In this document: piece after piece, positions 11,331 through 40,357 of the stretch
How the letters are laid out: each line of letters opens with the position of its first letter
How positions within the stretch are numbered: position 1 is the stretch's first letter
Assembly: GCF_019649055.1 (NCBI RefSeq)
Contig: NW_026570460.1
Span: 40,206-104,205 of the forward strand
Origin: Paramacrobiotus metropolitanus
Taxonomy: Eukaryota; Tardigrada; Eutardigrada; Parachela; Macrobiotidae
Length of the DNA: 64,000 bases
Direction: 5' to 3'
Program-made: the position numbers and the translations under genes
The notes under the pieces: model-generated
The model's database searches: none
Told to the model about the DNA's origin: nothing
Seen by the model: the letters and a program-made list of their open reading frames with translations, nothing else

Positions 11331-11621
11331 GTAGCCGGCAAATCGCTTCTGCCGTTTTACTTTGGCCGCAGTTCATTTTGGCAGACTCTTATTTTGGTCT
11401 AGTTTAGGCAAGAAAACCTTACTTTCGATGTAACTACGTTGCGATTGTTCCATAATCTTTCAAATAAACTAAGAATGGTCAAAGGATCGATTAGGCAGCC
11501 ATTGTATTTGCTGCATTCCACCGGCTGGAGCCTAGCATTGTGGCCCAACATGGTCCTTGTTTCCTCATCAATATAACATACGCCCGATTTTAGCCTTATA
11601 CGAGTTTTTCGGTTATTGCAG

Positions 11622-12476
11622 CTTTCAGGGAACGATACTGTAATTACCGGCCATGCTGGTTATGCGAATGGACGTGGTGTGACATGCACGAGCAGCTATG
11701 CAGGGATAAACTAACGGGGAACTGTTCCACTGGAGACCAGATTTCCACAGAAACAGAGGAGCGGAAGTTCATTCACAATGCCTTAAACGTTCCGTTTTTG
11801 GAAGAAAAACAAGACAATGAGAAATCGCAACAAGTGCTTCGGTTATTAGCGGCCATATACCTTAAGGACGGTAATGGAGATTTTCTCTTGTGCAGTTCTC
11901 ACTTGGGTGACTTGAAAAAAATTACAGCAGAAGAACCAATTTGTTGTGGCGATATCGTGCTGGCCGGTGTTGGAATACGGATTGTAACGTCTGATGGGAA
12001 ACGAGAAATTGAGTTATTTTCATCTGGAAATACCTTCAGAATTAATGCGGACATCCTGAATGTTTCCATGCACACATTCCTTAGAGAACTGTATTCGGAG
12101 AACTTTCTGAACGCAAAACTGGCTTATCAGTTGTTTTACAAGTCCAAATTTTATGATCTCGGTGTCAGGGATGGGAATGACCAGGATGATTACTGGAGGC
12201 AAGTCAAAACCATTAAAAAAGAACATTCTTCTTGTGGAGAACAGTGCGCTCTAAGAAACGTTTCCTGAATAAGAACGGAATCAGAGGCGTTCCGCTGAAA
12301 CCAAACAGAAAAGACAACCCGCATATTATGATCAAGCTGGACCATTCAGCCGCAAGTGAGAGCACCGTGATGGACGTCGAGGAGACCAAATTTTTCGTTG
12401 ATGTCACGTTGTTATCATCAAATACGGATAATCCACTTAACGTTGATCGGGAATGCCCGTCACTGTCCGAGACCTG
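11622..12476 (+). pseudogene. Protein X, copy 1 (frameshifted)
   Basis: An acceptor (TTATTGCAG) precedes a phase-1 frame that runs through an internal ATG at 11,684 to a premature stop at 12,268. One C is missing within GTTTCCTGAATAA compared with the 39 kb copy. The rest of the protein (LNKNGI onward) is open in another frame to 12,476, where a deletion removes the C-terminal acidic region. Compared with copy 2 it also lacks a three-residue repeat at CCGDIV versus CCGDSGDIV. I do not recognise the family. Confidence 0.7.
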
Positions 12477-12625
12477 AGCGCGTTAGCCAGCGATTTATCT
12501 GATCTGTCCTTCTTTTACTAGGACAATGCACTCGCTTTTTCGGGTACTGCTAGACCGAAGCGTAGATAAGTTACATGAAATTAAATTTACCTTATTGCTG
12601 ATGACAGAAATTTGATCTGTATTCC

Positions 12626-21164: not shown

Positions 21165-22550
21165 GCCTCAATATCAGCTTCTCAGTATCATGCGCCGGCG
21201 TAGCGATAGAGCTGCTAATGGATTTCTTTCCAGGTAGGTATAGCCTTTACGCTAGCCTATTGCAGATTGCATACGGTAGAGGCTCCGTACATAGAAGAGT
21301 ACGGCATCACACAAGCAGTACGTTGGCAAGATGAAGACTGCTTCAGGTCTTTGTGCGGTTACACTTGGGTCACGTACAGCAACCAAAAAATTAATCGAGT
21401 CGAGTGCCCGCGAGGACATGACCACCCTGCTCGGCGGTCTGAGTGCTCAAAAAAAGGTCCACGGGCAGCATAAGCTGACCTGCCATTCACTCATGTGTCT
21501 GAGCCGTTGCAAGCATCCGCGTAAGGCAGATAGTTTTTACGCGTCACCGCACGACGGAGGTTACGCTAACGTCGCGAACGGACGTAAAACCACCCGGAAC
21601 CGAAGGTTCCACATGGAACCGGAGCCGAAACTAACACAAACCGTGCAATCTGAAATAGGCTGCTATCAGCTACAAGCCTACAGTACCAGGTTGCATGCTT
21701 GTATTGTTAACTCGAGGTTACATGATAGACAAATTTCTATCCCTGTTCAGTTGTTCGTAGTGGATTCTTGATTTGTTGGCATTCTTTAAGTTACAGATTA
21801 GCAAACGGCTTAAAAGTAAAGCTATACGAAGTATGTATCTCAGATATCTGTACTGTTTCAATTATAAAAGAATTCTGCATCAAACTTCCATGATGAAAGC
21901 ACAATAATCTGAGCTGCGTCCCCTGTGATGGGGAAATTTAAGCGCGGTGTCTGGAACCTAATCAGACATTGTTGTATTATTTATTTTAGATGGGGATTTA
22001 CAGAGTATCTCATCTAATTGACGTCTGGGAAACCGCTCCGAAAAAGAGTCTTTACTAGCCGCGGTAAGTTTTGCACAACAGATTGCCAACTGTTTATCGT
22101 ACCTTCATGATAACACCGTTATACATGGCGATCTGAAATCGGCAAATGCGTTCGTACGACCGCATCCGCGCCGACCTAAAGCATATACTATGCTCATTGG
22201 AGATCTGGATGATCGATGTTGTAATGACGAGTAGTCTAACACGCACGAAAGATGTCACAAAAATACATGGAACTGTTCGCTACATGTCACCGGAACTGAT
22301 CAAAACCTTCGTGTCCGTAGTGTAAACGAACAGGCCGCAAAACCGATGTTGGGAGTTTGAGTTGTATAATCATCGATCTTGCAGACAGTTTATCAGGAAA
22401 TAAGGACCGATGGCTGCATCAACGAGAAACAGCAGACCGGTGCAGAATCACGAATTCTCCGGATTACGTAATTTTAAATAAACTAGCGGATGACTTTGAC
22501 ATTACCTCTACGAGAAGCTTAGATGGATCGGTTTTCTCTTAGATCTCATA
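21165..22550 (+). pseudogene. Broken protein-kinase gene (right copy)
   Basis: It has the same exon-intron layout as 855-2,240: N-lobe end AIELLMDFFPG at 21,210-21,242, intron, and C-lobe from 21,990. This copy has lost one T in the GAAACCGCTCCG segment (22,030), so the C-lobe start is out of frame with the catalytic loop HGDLKSAN. Beyond the GDLDD motif one frame joins TKDVTKIHGTVRYMSPEL, which the left copy has broken. A stop follows at about 22,324. It is not a functional kinase. Confidence 0.85.
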
Positions 22551-26289: not shown

Positions 26290-29200
26290 CTACATATTCT
26301 TAAAATTTTCCCACGCCACAGCGAAAATTTTTTCTAACTCGTAAGATAGTTCCACGGATGTTATTCGATCCTTGCTGCTGCTGCACAATGACTTTTCTAT
26401 CAAAGCGGTGATTTCCTCATGGCTGGAGTGTATTAAAAGAGGAACAAAGCCATCCGCTAGCTTCCTCAAAATTACGTAATCCGGATAATTCGTTATGATG
26501 CACTGGTCTTCTGTTCCCTTTCGGTGCAGCCATCTATCCTTATTTCCCAATAAACCGTCCACAAGGTCGATGATTATGCACCCTAAACTCCAAACGTCCG
26601 TTTTCCGACCAATCCGATCCGTCGGCACCTCGCAGACAAATGTTTTGACCATTTCCGGTGACATATAGCGAGTGGTTCCATGCATTCGGGTGACATCCTT
26701 TGTACATGTTTGGCTACTCGTCATCATGCATCGGTCATCCAGATCACCGATCACCATAACGTATCCGCCAGGTCGGTGAGGTTGCGATCGTACAAGTACA
26801 TTCGCTGGTTTCAAATCGCCGTGTATAATCCTTTCGGAATGAAGGTATGATAAACCCCAGCTAATCTGGAGTGCAAAACTGACGCCGGCTAGTAATGACA
26901 TTTCTTCTGATATCGCTTCCCAAACGTTAATCAGGCAAGCCAAATCACCATCTGCAATATTTAGAAAGTTGCGCAGAAATTTTAAATTTAATAAACTAAT
27001 ATTAATTTTATCATTTTTATTAATCGTTACGCGCTACAGTCCTTGCAACACATAATTTACGAATTCAGCTCTTCTATCGGAAAAGGATATACGTGTGCCT
27101 CGGTTTGGGCTGTAATTTCTTAGGTAAGTGGTGATTCCAGCTTGCTAATGAGATACATTTAACCCCATTTAACTTTAAAAGACCCAAGCGGAGGAAAGCA
27201 GCTGATTGTTCTAATTCTGGAGCCCGGATGCGTCCATTGGACAGTGGCTCGCCAAGCTCACTATTTAGGGAAGGTGCGGTAACTGGAACCCACTCTCGGG
27301 TACGGCTTCTCAACTCCAAATGCGCGCCCAAGAATCGAAACGAATGTGAAAATAACTTGCTGCAAACAGTGCTAGGAATTTTTACGCGTGTTTTTGCCAC
27401 AGGAATTGCCAGAATTCAACAAAATATGGAAAGATATTACGAATTCCTTGGGAGCATGGGTTATTGAAAAAATGTAAAATGTACTTTGGTCTATATGTAC
27501 GCTTTGTGAATTATTAACCACTGTCTGTAAGGCTAGAGTCCTAAAACTAAGCTAGTTAGGCTATTTTGCCGCAGTAAGAACAATACGCGGCAATATAGCT
27601 AGCTAACTATTTTGCTGCACACAATAGCCACAGGTATACCAATGAGATTTCTTATAAAACGTAGCCGATTAAATTGAAACCTTATGTAAACAAACTTCTG
27701 CTAAATGAAGTTGCAAAGCGAGATGGTGTACTAGAGACATTACGTGCATGGCTTATAAAATTATAGTAGCTTATTTTTAAGCAGTTTTTTGCAGCAAGGG
27801 ACAGTAATTATCGATTTTGTGGCACCCCCCCCCCCCGCAATAAGCGCAACCCCCGTAATAAGCGCACTGCCGCATTCATGTTCGAAAAATAACGTCACCC
27901 CCGAAATTACCGCACCCGGTGCGGTAGTTGTATGTTAAGTCCAGTAAACCGATAATTACACCATATTTTGTGTTTTAAAGCGTATTTATTTAATCATTTG
28001 AAAGCTGAGTTGTGATCGAAACCTTAACATAACATGGCCATATGCTTGAATACAAAGTACAATCAATGACGATTGACGAAGCAACAAAAATGAGTCAGTT
28101 ACTACTGTAGAAGTAGTCTAGTAGAGGTATCAAACGCTATTGCTAGTTAACCATTTAGTACTAGGTAACTGCGGCGCTTATTTACAGTAGAGCAAGATGA
28201 GCAGTTGTTTCGAAAAATAATGGGCCCTTGCGAAATTTATTCTTGACTAATAAGCGCCCTTTCTAAAATTTATTCTTTGAGAAATAAAGGCACCTCCCGC
28301 TTCATGGTATCCGAACTACAATATTTGCCGCCCAGTGCGGCAAATTCGATAATTACGGTATTTGACCGCTTACTGGATTCTTGGTTGTGAAAGTCGAAGC
28401 CGGATGCCCCTCCCGCACAAGCGATTTGAATTCGATATGTGCGGAAGTGACTACTACTTGTGAGATTCGCTAAAAAATCGCAAACGGTTACCCAAGCAAA
28501 ACAAAAAATTTTAAGCAAAAGAAACACAAGAAAAGCCTAAGATACCTAAGAATAACCTGAAAATAACAGAACATCTTAAGAAAATATAAGAACCAGATCT
28601 GAAAAAACCATAAGAATAACCTAAACTGAATAACCTAAGACCTAAACTGAATGACCTAAGAAATCTAAGAACAACCTAAGAACAAAACTTCAGAAACCTA
28701 CGAAATCTACCTAACGTACTCACGTAAAATAGCGGACCAGCTGAAAACCCGCAGTGTGCGGCAATTGGCCAGCTAACTAACTGGCCGCAGATACTGCGGC
28801 AAAACAGCTCAAAAGCTATTTTGCCGCAAAAGCTGCGGCAGTACGTAGAGCCACTCCGTAAAACCAACCAGTAACAGTCAACGGTATAGAACGCGATCTG
28901 CTTTGACGATTTTTATTCTACATCATTGAAATGTGCATTCTCATTGGTAAAATACCGAGTATAAAGGAAATCAGCATAAAACACTGCCATGGATCGATGC
29001 GCTAATTGTGTAAGCAACTGAAATTTCGAAGCTGACTGGGGAAATATATAGCAACACATTCATGTGCAAAGCTCTCCACTAACCTGGAAAATAGTCCATT
29101 AACAGCTCTATGGCAGCGCCGGTACCGGATACGAAGCAGCTGATTTTGTAGTACCGCACTATATTTTTGTTTCGCAGCTGCAGCAGCTGTCTCCACTTGG

Positions 29201-31831
29201 CAGCAGAAGTGATGCAGTTTTCGCTGTCAACATTTCCGGTTAGTCTAACGTAGATCGCTTTAACAGCAATCGAGCCTGAACCGGTAAAGTCACCGCGAGC
29301 AGTAATTTCAGCTTTATAAACTGCCCCAAACGGCCCCTGTCCAATTTTGTCCGTTGTGGGATTGTATTTGTACCGACAAGAGCTGCCGATACTTTCCATG
29401 GTTTTTTCTTCGTCATTCTGCGAGCTCCTTGGATCAAGTGCTGTACCCGATGGCTCCGAAGTGCCTTGGACCTTGTTGGTAATTCCATCACGATTGTCTT
29501 CCAGCTCTGAAATATATTTAAAATATTCAGTAACCAACCTGTTACCTCATTTTAGCTTGTGCAAAACTGTTCTTAAAAATACCGCTCTGATGGTTCCATA
29601 CCTTTTTGACTGGAATGGGCGTCGGTGATATCACGGTCGGTTTTAATGCAATCTGTCTGACCTTTAATGAAGTCATGATCACAGACCGCATCCATGTATG
29701 GTCTTTCCATCTTATTAAACACCATGCATCGTTGAAGGAAACTCCGAGCCTGAATCAAGAAAATAATCTCATTCCCATAGCGAGCTTCCCGCCTGAAGTC
29801 GCCATCAATGCACCGCGCGATCAACTTAGAAAAAGCCTCCTTGGCTAGTCCATCTAGTGATTTTTTTAGAAGCATACGCAACACTATCGGTATGGAATAT
29901 GGCGCACGGCCTTGCAGCATAAAGACTAAAATGCAGGCTAAACTCCATACGTCGCCCCGGCGGCCCATGAAGAAACCTTTCTTGCGACTGATCTCTTCTG
30001 GGGCCCTATACGGCGACACCATGTCCCGTTTTTTCGCTTCCGGACGTTGAATTCCTTTCTCAAGCCAATCAAAAAGAGGCAAGCAGTCAGTTATCTTTAG
30101 CAACTTTGGCAATTGTTCCGAAAAAATTAAATTTTCTGGACACAGTTCCCCGTGTACTATTTCCCGTGAGTGTAGATATCGTAATCCAGATGCGACGTCA
30201 GCAAAGTATCGTACCACTTCATTGGCCTCATAACCAGTGTGATAGCGGCGAGAAAAAGCTTGCATATCTTTTTCCAGGGTAACGTCTATGGCAAAAAGTC
30301 ACCGTTATGCGGCTTTTACAGTAATGGAAAATAACCGTAACTGAAAAAATTTTAAGTCTTTAATAATTAAACAAGCGCAGACGTATTGTTATATGCATTG
30401 GCTGATGCGAATTAAAATCTTCCATAATTTGTAGTTCTGCAAATGTTCTGCACAACAGCCCAGGATATTTGGTACAACGTTGCTGATGTTAACTTTCTCA
30501 ACGCTTTCCTCTCATGTAATTACAGGTACTTAAACTGCTAACCACCCGTATCTGTAAAAAAAAGCAGGTACTGAAAGATTAGTTTTGGTTTGTGAAGCGG
30601 GTCCGCAGATTGTAGTACACTGTATACCTAGTTTTTTTGGTGAGTTGGTACTAGCCTGGCAGGCCCGCAAGAAAGGGGGGGGGCGCACCGGCGGTGGCCC
30701 TTTCGCGGATTTTTGACCGCCCTCCCGGCGCGGCGTCCTGACGGCCGAGAAGGGCTCCGCTGCCCTGGCGCCGCTTTTACTGCCATGGTTCCGTACGTTT
30801 TTCAATTTTTTTATTATATAAATTAATGAGATTTGTGGTTCGTTATTTCGTACAGTAATCTGCGTGTTCAGAAAGCTTGAAAAACATTTAAAACCAGGCT
30901 AAGGTTAATACCATCTACCGAAAGCTTGAAAAACATTAAAACCAGGCAAAGGTTAATACCATCTACCGATCGACGGGTTTTGTCGGGCCAATATACGGTT
31001 CAAAAATAAAAAGAAATTAAAAATAATTTTTTCTATTAAGCGCCCCCCTGGCGGCGGTCAAAAAATGGTGCGCCCCCCCCTGTCCAAAAACCTTGTGGCG
31101 GGCCTGGCCGCTGCTAGTCATTGCAGTACAAGTTTGTATATATGTACCTAACTAACGTAAGGTTAGAACCTGACCCCGCCCACCGGTCCGCCACTGAGAA
31201 GTGCCACTCAGCAGACGTTTGATGCGGGTGGTCTAGGGAAGAAGTGCGGCAGGTCGTTCGAATAATTCTGGGATTATATAGTAAATAAACCTATCGCTTT
31301 TTTGAACCAAGTTATCAGTCTCGTGACATTTGGTTCCCTGGTAAATGGGTTAGCTGAACCGCACAAGAAAAATAATGAAATTAATGGCTGTCTAGTTAAG
31401 CGAAAACGTACTCAGTAAAAACATATTTTGATTCAAACATATTGTTCGTTACCACTGCATCGTTCCATGAAAATGCACAGTTGAAAGTCATCTCCAATAC
31501 TGGACGCGTTCAAGAAATAATACTTCACAATGTTGGAGTGTTCCAGCGCGCGAATTATTTCGAATCTGTTCGAAACCGCCGGTCCAAAGATACAACCACT
31601 GCCAGAACCACGTGAGGCCTGAAGTACATGAGACACAAATTCGTGCCGAAATCGCATTAATTTCACCGCAAATTCTTGACCGCTGGATCTGTCTTCGGCT
31701 TTACACACATCAAAACCACTATTTCCACGACCCAGCAATTCGGTAGTCACTTTCATAGTCCATGGTGGCCGAAGATTGTTAATGTCCAGACGCTCACGAA
31801 ATCGTTCAATATCTGTACTTGCTTGTTCCAT
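26290..31831 (-). CDS. Tandem protein-kinase-domain protein (pseudokinase plus atypical kinase)
   Basis: Four exons join in frame: 31,453-31,831, 29,602-30,285, 29,084-29,506 and 26,290-26,951, predicting 715 residues; all three introns are phase 1. Domain 1 (about 28-330) has a glycine loop LLGRGNSGFDV and lysine K57 (FAVK), but the catalytic loop is HGELCPEN (171-178) and the DFG site is DCL (193-195), so catalysis is unlikely. Domain 2 (about 404-710) has KIGQGPFGAVYK, K437, HGDLKPAN (539-546), DLD in place of DFG (565-567), TTRYMSPE and DVWSLGC. It keeps the key Lys, both Asp and Asn, so it may be active. There is no signal peptide or membrane segment. A pseudokinase beside a kinase often acts as a regulator; that role is inferred. 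The 2.1 kb last intron is filled with transposon-like repeats. Confidence 0.85.
27801..28359. mobile_element. Candidate MITE inside the kinase intron
   Basis: The ends ACAGTAATTATCGATTTTG and, inverted, ACCGTAATTATCGAATTTG match with two differences. Inside are repeated TAAGCGC words, an 11-base C-run (27,827-27,837) and the palindrome TACCGCACCCGGTGCGGTA. No coding sequence. The target duplication is not clear. Confidence 0.5.
28500..28860. repeat. CCTAAG-rich low-complexity repeat and TTTTGCCGCA hairpin
   Basis: At 28,530-28,700 CCTAAG/CCTAAA words recur every 10-20 bases, as in the fold-backs at 9.98, 19.5 and 38.5 kb. At 28,765-28,850 the word TTTTGCCGCA appears in both orientations and forms a hairpin. 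The same word occurs near 27,562. This lies within the last kinase intron. Confidence 0.55.
30655..31113. mobile_element. hAT-like MITE in kinase intron 1
   Basis: Inverted ends (CCTGGCAGGCCCGC at left; CAGCGGCCAGGCCCGCC inverted at right) continue into facing G-runs with GGGGCGCACC near 30,675 and GGTGCGCCCC near 31,070. CTAG flanks both sides. The CAGNGGC...GGCCCGCC end type is common in hAT elements. It includes the GC-rich block 30,690-30,780; reading frames there are translated repeat. An internal 49-base tandem duplication is listed separately. Confidence 0.55.
30871..30967. repeat. 49-base tandem duplication
   Basis: Two units beginning GAAAGCTTGAAAAACATT start at 30,871 and 30,920 and differ by a few small changes. 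They lie inside the hAT-like element. Confidence 0.8.
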
Positions 31832-33677: not shown

Positions 33678-35163
33678 ATGAATATAGTTAACACTTTATA
33701 CGAACTTGCCGCATTTTCGGCGGCCGAAAGTGCAAAGTTATGTAACAGTGCGGCAGAACTTCTGAATCCCAATATGAATTGCACAAACGGAATAAATATC
33801 GCGGAAATTGTCGAAGATGTCGTGACTAACGATATATTTGGAGAAGAGTCTATTGCGGATAAGCTTCGAAGGATACAAACACCAATAGATCGCAAAGGCC
33901 GTTTCAATTCGGTGACCGAAATGCTGAGGTTTCCGTTTGTGCCAATTATACGGCATCAAATGATTATTATATACATTTCACGAGACAGTACTCGCTGTTA
34001 TATACTGACGGTGTATCTACAAAGCGCAAGACAAAATTTTGTACCAAAAGACACTGGTAGAGAGTAATTAGCGCGATGCTGGCGCTTTAATGATAGCCAC
34101 TGCACTACGGCCATTGCAATAATGACATTTACCATCGATATGCCTGCGACTGATTGGGTGTTCACAAATAACTCCATTACTTTATCAGTTGCAGTTTCCT
34201 TATACATTCTTGGACATCGTGCGAGTTTCACAGTGGTTTCTGCTGTTTTGGCATCGGGAGGTCAACTGCTTATGCATATTTTGCAAAATTTTTGAATGCT
34301 ATGAAGGGATGTTTTGGTGATTCATTAAACCAACCCCTTACGTCGGCCCAAGTCGAAAAATATGCAGAAGACTGCAGCACTGCTTTTCGTGAAAAAGTTG
34401 CAGTTTGGTGTCCAAGAATTATTGGCGCCGTGGATGGTTCGCATATTTATATTAACGCCATGTCTGAGGGCCCAGACGGTTACTACAACCGGAAGCAGAG
34501 ATACAGCGTTATCTTACAGGTACCGATTATACTAACAATTTTCAACACATTACAGTATGTACTCGTAACACAAATTGACATAAAACATCAATACATTTTC
34601 AAGTTTATATATTATATTATCCTGAATTAAATTTAGTTTAAAATTTAGGCAGCTGCTTCCTTATCTTGCGAAATTTTACACGCTGTATTCGGGTTTGCCG
34701 GTCGAGTACATAATGCAACTGTGTACAAGAATTCGAAAGTGTCGGAGTGGTTGCCCCCCAGCGTTACGCTGCTGGGTGACAGCGTGTACCCATTCAGCCA
34801 GCAGCTGATTATGCCATTTCGCGACGATGGCACACTCGACCGGAGCAAAAAACACTACAATGGGATGATATCGTGTAAACGGTGTTGCGTGGAGCGAACG
34901 TTTGGTCAGCTAAAAGTAAGGGGACAATTATGTTCCACATTCCGTATCGCGATATGAAAACAGGGAATCTCGTAATACTTGTCTGCTGTCTGCTCCATAA
35001 TATATGCGTTGGACATCTGGACCTGTTTGACTTCGATGATACACCGGCGGAAATTGTTGAGCAGGGCTACAATGAGGATGTACCTGTCGAACCGCCTGCT
35101 GATGATCGTACAGTTACAGCGAAGCGCTTAAAACTTATGACAAAAATTTTGGGTGGGAAGTAA
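33678..35163 (+). pseudogene. PIF/Harbinger transposase, second element
   Basis: Legible blocks in order: an N-terminal segment (33,678-33,950); a helix-turn-helix stretch with FGIGRSTAYAYFAKFLNAM near 34,245-34,305; IIGAVDGSHIYI (first catalytic D, about 34,420-34,455) ending VILQ before a GTACCG donor; and, after acceptor TTTAG at 34,649, VFGFAGRVHNATVY, LLGDSVYPF (second D) and CCVERTFGQLK (E). A frameshift near 34,915-34,930 precedes HIPYRDM.TGNLVILVCCLLHNICV and the stop at 35,163. The DDE triad is complete, but frameshifts near 34,240 and 34,920 break the protein. It converges with its Myb-like partner 360 bases downstream. Confidence 0.85.
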
Positions 35164-38943: not shown

Positions 38944-39153
38944 CTGTAGCCGGCAAATCGCTTCTGCCGTTTTTACTTCGGCCGCAGTTCATTTCGGCAG
39001 ACTATTATTTTGGTCTAATTTAGGCAATAAATTCTTGTATTTGCTGCAGGCTACCGGCTGGAGCCTAACATTGTGGCCCAACAGGGTGCTTGTTACCTCA
39101 TCAATATAACATACACCCGATTTAACCTTATACGAGTTTTTCGGTTATTGCAG

Positions 39154-40124
39154 CTTTCAGGGAACGATATTGTAATTACCGGCCATGCTGGTTATGCGAA
39201 TGGACGTGGTGTGACATGCGCGAACAGTTAGACAGGGATAAACTACCGGGGAAGTGTTCCACTGGAGATCAGATATCCACAGAAACAGAGGAACGGAAGT
39301 TCATTCACAATGCCTTAAACTTTCCGTTTTTGGAAGAAAAACAAGACAATGAGAAATCGCAACAAGTGCTTCGGTTATTAGCGACCATATACCTCAAGGA
39401 CGGAAATAGAGATTTTCTCTCGTGCAGTCCGCACTTGGATGACTTGAAAAAAATTACCGCGGAAGAACCAACTTGTTGTGGCGACAGTGGCGATATCGTG
39501 CTGGCCGGTGTCGGAATACGGATTGTAACGTCTGATGGGAAACGAGCAATTGAGCTATTTTCATCAGGACCCCCCTTCAAAATTAATGCGGACATCCTGA
39601 ATGTTTCCATGCACACATTCCTTAGAGAGCTGTATTCAGCGAAGTTTCTTAACGCAAAACTTGCTTATCAGTTGTTTTACAAGTCCAAATTTTATGATCT
39701 CGGTGTCAGGGATGGGAGTGACCAGGATGACTATTGGCGGCAAGTCAAAACCATTAAAAAAGAGCATTCTTCTTGTGGAGAACAGTGCGGTCTGAGAAAC
39801 GCCTCCCTGAATAAAAACGGAATCAGAAGCGTTCGGCTGAAACCCAACAGAAAAGGCAACCCGCATATTATGATCAAGCTGGACCAGTCAGCCGCATGCG
39901 AGGGCATCGTGATGGACGCCGAGGAGATCAAATTTTTCGTAGATGTCACGTTGTTATCATCAAATACGGACACTCTACTCAACGTTGCTCGGGAATGCCC
40001 GTCACTGTCCGAGACCAGAACAGATCCTGAAACGCTGGAGCATGTTAGCGATTTATCAGATCTGTCCTTCTTTTACCAGGAAAGTGCACTCGCTTTTTGC
40101 GGGTACTGCTGGACCGAAGCGTAG
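39154..40124 (+). CDS. Protein X, copy 2 (open frame, family unknown)
   Basis: A frame of 302 codons runs from ATG at 39,216 to 40,124. It is also open upstream to an acceptor, TTATTGCAG at 39,145-39,153, in phase 1. The upstream part encodes a Cys/Trp-rich stretch (RYCNYRPCWLCEWTWCD), so the true protein may start in an earlier exon and the ATG may be internal. The rest is soluble and mixed-charge, with notable pieces EEPTCCGDSGDIVLAGVG, FLRELYSAKFLNAKLAYQLF and a C-terminal FFVDVTLLSSN; no membrane segment. The broken copy at 11,622 shows mostly substitutions that keep chemistry, suggesting past constraint. No known domain is recognised. Confidence 0.65.
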
Positions 40125-40357
40125 ATAAGTTATATGAAATTAAATTTACCTTATTGCTGATGACAGAAATTCTGACTAGGCTACGTGTTAAGGTAGGTTT
40201 GACTAGGCACGTATTACGTATTTTGACTAGGTACGTTATTAATTATTTGTCAGGGCGCAAACAACTACTAAGAAAGCGTAGCAACACCAGGGTCACAGAC
40301 TGACAGTCATTGTCAAGTTGCTACGGACACAATCGCACAACATTACCAAGACGTTCA

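Follow-up and report, generated by a model that had tools for sequence, protein, structure and literature searches.

Among the known tandem pseudokinase–kinase genes are those of the Janus kinases (JAKs) and GCN2. In the JAKs, the pseudokinase domain JH2, whose catalytic motif reads HGN, regulates the kinase domain JH1. The stretch of the Paramacrobiotus metropolitanus genome analyzed here (64,000 nucleotides of contig C240; hereafter, the window) contains a gene with this domain order, in which four exons on the minus strand (31831–26290) encode 715 amino acids. The initial annotation had proposed a profile search of both domains, and each of them matches the Pfam Pkinase model (domain 1, 102.6 bits; domain 2, 110.6 bits; gathering score, 31.7), placing both in the protein kinase superfamily. 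Domain 2 belongs to a group that we term GDLDD kinases, a name coined here for kinases with HGD as the catalytic motif, DLD at the DFG position, SPE in place of APE, and Arg or Lys in the helix-C Glu column.

Like the Janus kinases, the window gene places a pseudokinase ahead of a kinase, and in its first domain the catalytic Asp is altered but the β3 Lys is not. Janus kinases also carry FERM and SH2 domains, whereas a Pfam scan of the window protein at E 0.001 matched kinase models only, with no FERM, SH2, Kelch or HSP70. GCN2 has the same pseudokinase–kinase order and is the best PDB chain for a GDLDD profile (110 bits; best 60 of 2809 chains), but it contains RWD and HisRS domains, and Pfam found no GCN2-specific domain in the window protein. 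The match falls partly on each of the two GCN2 domains (48 and 44 bits) and so reflects general kinase similarity. Other chains among the best 60 of 2809 were ULK1 (105 bits), NEK7 (101), MAP3K2 (100), MAP3K5 (98), 7t6f (97; a full-length JAK-type chain that we take to be JAK1) and JAK2 (83), and no close kin was seen among these 60. With domain 2 as a single sequence, the best PDB match is MAP3K5 (ASK1; E 3e-16), whereas with the profile MAP3K2 and MAP3K5 score no higher than GCN2, ULK1 and NEK7 (best 60 of 2809). ASK1 has HRD, DFG, APE and the helix-C Glu, and domain 2 has none of them.

POMK (SGK196) resembles the GDLDD kinases in having DLD for DFG and no helix-C Glu, and it binds ATP (PMC12599244). 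Unlike POMK, which is without the canonical β3 Lys, GDLDD kinases keep this residue in all 38 rows of our family alignment that have a letter there; POMK is absent from the best 60 of 2809 PDB chains for the GDLDD profile. For the evolutionary pattern, the closest parallel is provided by the plant tandem kinase–pseudokinases, such as WTK1/Yr15 and RPG1, where many separate kinase duplications and fusions have occurred and one partner decays (PMC6170490). WTK1 differs in that the kinase comes first and the pseudokinase second, and in that other kinase families are involved, those of the plant proteins being of the WAK/RLCK type; here, it is mostly the first domain that has decayed. On balance, we favor a reading of the window gene as a JAK-like pair, in which a degenerate regulatory domain precedes an atypical, probably ATP-using kinase, and which would be an arrangement that evolved several times.

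Domain 2 and the GDLDD kinase family

Domain 2 is encoded by the last two exons. Exon 3 (29084–29506, minus strand, as for all parts of the gene) supplies the linker and the N-lobe, with GQGPFG (29325–29342), the AVK that contains the β3 Lys (Lys437; 29259–29267), and Lys458 in the helix-C Glu column (within 29196–29201). Exon 4 (26290–26951) supplies the C-lobe through the stop codon, with HGDLKPAN (26800–26823), DLD (26737–26745) and MSPE (26653–26664). In the spliced protein, HGD occupies residues 539–541, Asn546 follows, and DLD occupies residues 565–567 ahead of SPE, which bears out the earlier description of domain 2 as keeping Lys, Asp and Asn alongside HGD and DLD. The domain shows all four GDLDD features and lies inside the GDLDD clade (100/100).

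A search of the P. metropolitanus assembly (169,799,020 bases in 533 contigs) with domain 2 gave at least 134 matches, with 113 of 758 candidates scored. We took 40 further loci, 37 among the better matches to domain 2 and three from a search with domain 1. All 37 of the former belong to the GDLDD family. Their catalytic motif is HGD in 30 (NGD, HCD, HTD or HGY in the rest), and the DFG position reads DLD in 35, DLG in one and DFD in one. HGD together with DLD was found in eight more (the window gene, L004, L005, L007 and L013–L016), all of these GDLDD loci having been chosen by likeness to domain 2. The three loci from the domain-1 search are kinases that read HRD, followed by DFG in two of them and by DFD in the third. 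These data support the view of the initial annotation, which had called for a survey of the genome for other members, that DLD is a family trait.

We also scanned the genome for DNA encoding the pattern HGD[L/I/M/F/V]KPxN[I/V], which occurs 182 times (reversed control, 0), and sampled about every seventh among 100 listed places, 12 in all. Ten of the 12 are clear family members, nine with DLD and one with DMD. All ten retain the DxD Asp and carry Arg or Lys in helix C, and the models of two contain a stop; their HGD and Asn are no evidence, because the pattern required both. The other two places are weak matches, yet they also read DLD. A fair guess is that the genome holds about 150 GDLDD genes, broken ones included. 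Relatives were also sought outside this genome, and nothing near was found in viral contigs (three loci, 24–25% identity) or in bacterial and archaeal contigs (kinases of 23–36% identity, best 80 of 350 confirmed); an NCBIfam scan returned distant bacterial kinases only, under the cut-off.

Two broken relatives of domain 2 lie in the window, both on the plus strand, and were originally cited as support for the DLD trait. The first (863–2187) is fragmented but keeps HGDLK and GDLDD, and a second copy (21173–22497) sits within the segment 20308–24876, which duplicates segment 1–4491 at 97.7% identity. Both do keep GDLDD, but as copies of one duplicated segment they count as one witness. By eye, this duplicate holds reverse transcriptase-like frames in addition to the broken kinase. 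Elsewhere in the window, a second duplicated coding stretch (11502–12615 and 39035–40175, 90% identical) has a frame with PYTSFSVIAAFRERYCNYRPCWLCEW, and frames at 34172–35163 resemble, by eye, a HARBI1-type transposase.

The helix-C Glu is held to be necessary for an active N-lobe and is usually treated as invariant. Its replacement in domain 2 and nearly the whole family is a feature absent from the initial annotation. In an alignment of 40 family domains with ASK1, the helix-C Glu column holds Arg in 29, Lys in seven, and Gln, Met, Val and a gap in one each; ASK1 and the five canonical relatives all have Glu there. Asp stands as the last letter of the DFG motif in 39 of the 40, and APE reads SPE in 35. 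Seven loci with an N-lobe model that is missing, doubtful or interrupted by a stop (L015, L027, L028, L030, L031, L037 and L043) were excluded from the residue counts, and all seven retain the HxD Asp, the Asn and the DxD Asp.

Several GDLDD kinases are joined to other domains. Of three C-terminal tails submitted to Pfam, two (L070 and L074) contain Kelch and one (L073) gave no match. The tail resembles a Kelch region by eye in five of the ten sampled members, and a kinase followed by Kelch may be the commonest build (judged by eye from tails within L021–L057 and L158–L169). HSP70 follows the GDLDD kinase in L071 (C150:131600-134700; E 7e-32), and an HSP70-like domain precedes it in L014 (C170:96500-101500; E 3e-15). 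The single-exon GDLDD kinase L021 (C253:19500-21900) has, by eye, an apparent C-terminal transmembrane helix.

The loss of the helix-C Glu from nearly all members is a point against domain 2 being an active kinase. Alternatively, the two domains and all GDLDD kinases might be noncatalytic scaffolds that bind ATP or partners, a role that the helix-C Arg and Lys, the third-position Asp and the Kelch and HSP70 partners would fit. Scaffolds would not, however, be expected to conserve catalytic residues as these proteins do: Lys, HxD Asp, Asn and DxD Asp are lost in 0 of 11 second domains and in one of 29 single domains, and the DxD Asp is kept in all ten sampled members. Moreover, POMK binds ATP despite having DLD and neither the β3 Lys nor the helix-C Glu, so a DLD kinase without this Glu can do so (PMC12599244). 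We therefore consider the scaffold explanation unlikely, and the JAK-like pair remains the reading that we pursue below.

Exon model of the tandem gene and comparable loci

Exon 1 (31453–31831), with its start codon at 31831, encodes the N-lobe of domain 1, including the GRGNSG loop (31715–31732), the AVK with the β3 Lys (Lys57; 31661–31669), and Arg89 in the helix-C Glu column (within 31565–31570). A hinge intron (30286–31452) separates it from exon 2 (29602–30285), which encodes the C-lobe with HGELCPEN (30131–30154), DCL (30080–30088) and APE (29996–30004). The two domains are separated by a linker intron of 95 nt (29507–29601), and domain 2 is divided by its own hinge intron (26952–29083), whose position in the fold is about that of the domain-1 hinge intron. 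All three introns are GT–AG and phase 1, and the 715-codon frame contains no stop or frameshift. Of 40 other kinase loci, 31 likewise have a phase-1 intron.

Because the first alignment had used the predicted protein itself as the query, we rebuilt the model with queries drawn from other contigs, namely seven domains of paralogs, to avoid circularity. All three first-domain queries placed the start at 31831 and recovered the first hinge intron exactly. The second hinge intron was exact with three of four queries, L007 moving the acceptor to 26904. For the linker intron, a joined L007 query recovered the acceptor (29507) but put the donor at 29661 instead of 29601. Third codon positions are the most divergent in both halves of the gene (domain 1 versus L007, L008, L009 and L011: 0.64–0.67 at third and 0.36–0.44 at second positions), a comparison that averages both lineages and by which recent relaxation cannot be dated. 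The four-exon tandem gene that was first proposed is thus upheld by its splice sites, its open frame, and the recovery of its start and hinge introns with paralogs.

Including that of the window, 12 two-kinase loci were found in the genome. As in the window, predicted introns join the two kinases of L007, L004 and L006 (contig C97). At eight further loci (L061, L062/L041, L068, L046, L064, L069, L065 and L066), the junction falls inside one open exon, which makes fusion credible there without a transcript. Six linkers that were measured are 15–49 amino acids long, in frame and free of stops, and a single frame crosses the junction in L046 and L069. Stops are present in L064, L065 and L069, which may be broken genes. 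Linker-intron phases are 1 in the window gene, 0 in L006, and possibly 0 or 1 in L004; for L007 the aligner gives phase 2, while inspection by eye allows a GTAAGT donor with a phase-1 acceptor. No fused pair was seen at the 12 sampled pattern places, which were scanned as far as 2.2 kb ahead of HGD and 1.6 kb past it; upstream of one of them, L166, another kinase ends at a stop of its own. With 12 such loci in this genome, and with 92 plant tandem kinase–pseudokinases described (PMC6170490), the rarity of such pairing put forward in the initial annotation is not supported. Two other kinase loci, L010 (C69) and L012 (C404), are apparently near-identical and are perhaps two haplotypes of one place.

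These loci bear on whether the window holds a pair of neighboring single-kinase genes that are transcribed independently or in operon-like fashion and have been misread as one. With the linker intron left unspliced, domain 1 would stop after nine more codons; its single-gene relatives end shortly past the kinase domain; exon 3 offers one in-frame ATG, nine codons ahead of YKYNP; and the linker donor is the one junction feature that was not recovered with a paralog query. Yet the halves lie just 95 nt apart with matching phase-1 sites, the junction is within one exon at eight other loci, and the domain-2 exons of the partnered paralogs L004 and L006 contain no in-frame ATG. A missing ATG alone is no proof of a fused first kinase, because L005, from the clade of domain 2, also has none in its N-lobe exon and a search of the 7 kb preceding it (L017) turned up no kinase. 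Taken together, these points make two separate genes very unlikely, and we treat the locus as one tandem gene.

Origin of the pairs and decay of first domains

In the spliced protein, domain 1 has Lys57, HGE at residues 171–173, Asn178, DCL at 193–195, and APE; the unusual HGE and DCL motifs first noted in the DNA are hence verified. The metal-binding Asp (Asp193) is retained within DCL. We regard the domain as dead because the HRD Asp is replaced by Glu and, in addition, Arg89 occupies the helix-C Glu column, although a Glu stands two residues on and this second assignment depends on the alignment.

Domain 1 is not a GDLDD kinase. In a careful tree, it groups with L007, L008 and L009 (100/98) in an HRD/DYS clade, far from the GDLDD clade. 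L008 and L009, which are intact single-gene relatives, read HRD/DYS and have the helix-C Glu, and L003, a related fragment, reads HGD/DYS. Moreover, the tip branch of domain 1 is long (1.23, compared to 0.43 for L009, 0.50 for L008 and 0.50 for domain 2). The motifs of its relatives, its place in the tree and this long branch indicate that HGE and DCL arose in the window gene's own line. As judged from these sequence comparisons, HGE/DCL is local decay and not a family trait, and the two domains have separate origins. It had been anticipated that canonical homologs would mark the altered motifs as local errors; this holds in part for domain 1, whose relatives read HRD/DYS, and fails for domain 2. 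A local-error reading of domain 2 was rejected, since HGD/DLD is found family-wide.

Another trace of a domain-1 N-lobe was seen in L004 (C97:259500-266500), where a relict of about 32 residues matches the N-lobe of the window gene at 85–91% identity and precedes both a first kinase of another sort and a GDLDD kinase. This locus is perhaps a former three-kinase gene, or one whose first domain was swapped.

That the window gene as a whole is a functionless, decaying duplicate, as the long branch of domain 1 and the two broken relatives of domain 2 in the window might suggest, is scarcely credible given 715 codons with no stop or frameshift and third codon positions that differ most in both domains (an average of both lineages).

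Classified by the clades of both halves in the careful tree, the 12 pairs are of about six kinds: the window gene and L007; L004 and L006, the latter assigned by its first domain alone; L064 and L069; four genes of C19/C171; L065; and L066. First domains fall in several separate places, and the starred branches force at least three changes, a strict count that may equal one gain and two losses. Pairs thus seem to have formed several times, to the extent that the tree can tell.

To compare decay, we counted loss of any member of the triad comprising the HRD Asp, the Asn and the DFG Asp. The triad is impaired in 10 of 12 first domains, in 0 of 11 second domains (the partial second domain of L006 being outside the 11) and in one of 29 single kinases (the ten sampled members being outside the 29, and L055 being counted as single despite the dead C-lobes behind it). 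Fisher tests, with kinship ignored, gave P values of 6.7e-5 for first versus second domains and 6.1e-7 for first versus single. When L064, L065 and L069, which have stops in the first domain, were removed, the counts were 7/9 versus 0/8 (P = 0.002); with L006, which has a stop in its partial second domain, also removed, they were 6/8 versus 0/8 (P = 0.007). At least one decayed first domain occurs in every one of the six kinds of pair, and the β3 Lys is retained in all 12 first domains. The two first domains with a full triad are those of L061 and L046. The C161 gene (L055/L072) has the reverse order: its GDLDD kinase is intact, and dead C-lobes come after it. These C-lobes have no N-lobe; one, with GGIFPEN, is in the same exon, and another, with HRSVNSNV, lies farther on. 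Because partners were sought partly upstream only, the counts favor the pseudokinase-first order. Within that constraint, the motif counts place decay mostly on the first half.

Possible working and significance

In the JAK-like pair that we favor, domain 2 would be an active but atypical Ser/Thr kinase, since the phosphotransfer residues are kept there and in nearly the whole family. Domain 1 would be a regulatory pseudokinase acting in cis on domain 2, by analogy with JAK and GCN2. With Lys57 and Asp193 kept, nucleotide binding by domain 1 is possible.

A bolder proposal, which we put forward tentatively, is that GDLDD kinases form a charge-rewired class. The helix-C Arg or Lys and the Asp of DLD would possibly be paired, such that a different salt bridge closes the active site, and the approximately 150 genes of this one tardigrade, some joined to Kelch or HSP70, would several times have been made into JAK-like switches. 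Against this, the helix-C and DxD changes coincide a single time, at the clade's base, and the 40-domain alignment did not show helix-C charge and DxD changing together among family members. There are also exceptions: Arg occurs with DLG in L022; Gln, Met and Val occur with DxD in L024, L064 and L069; and the canonical relative L058 has Glu with DFD.

Four things seem to be new here: the GDLDD family, in which the charge on helix C is reversed; the size that this family has reached in a single tardigrade; the repeated pairing; and decay that falls mostly on the first half. A literature search, with most subscription journals outside its reach, found no description of the GDLDD family and, by title, no study of the Paramacrobiotus kinome. 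PMC5531438 reports 27 kinase clusters among the tardigrade-only clusters of two other species, and these may include GDLDD kin.

If domain 2 is active, then an entire family of kinases can dispense with the helix-C Glu. One animal genome would also hold several separately formed pseudokinase–kinase genes, natural replicates that bear on why dead and live kinases join and which half decays.
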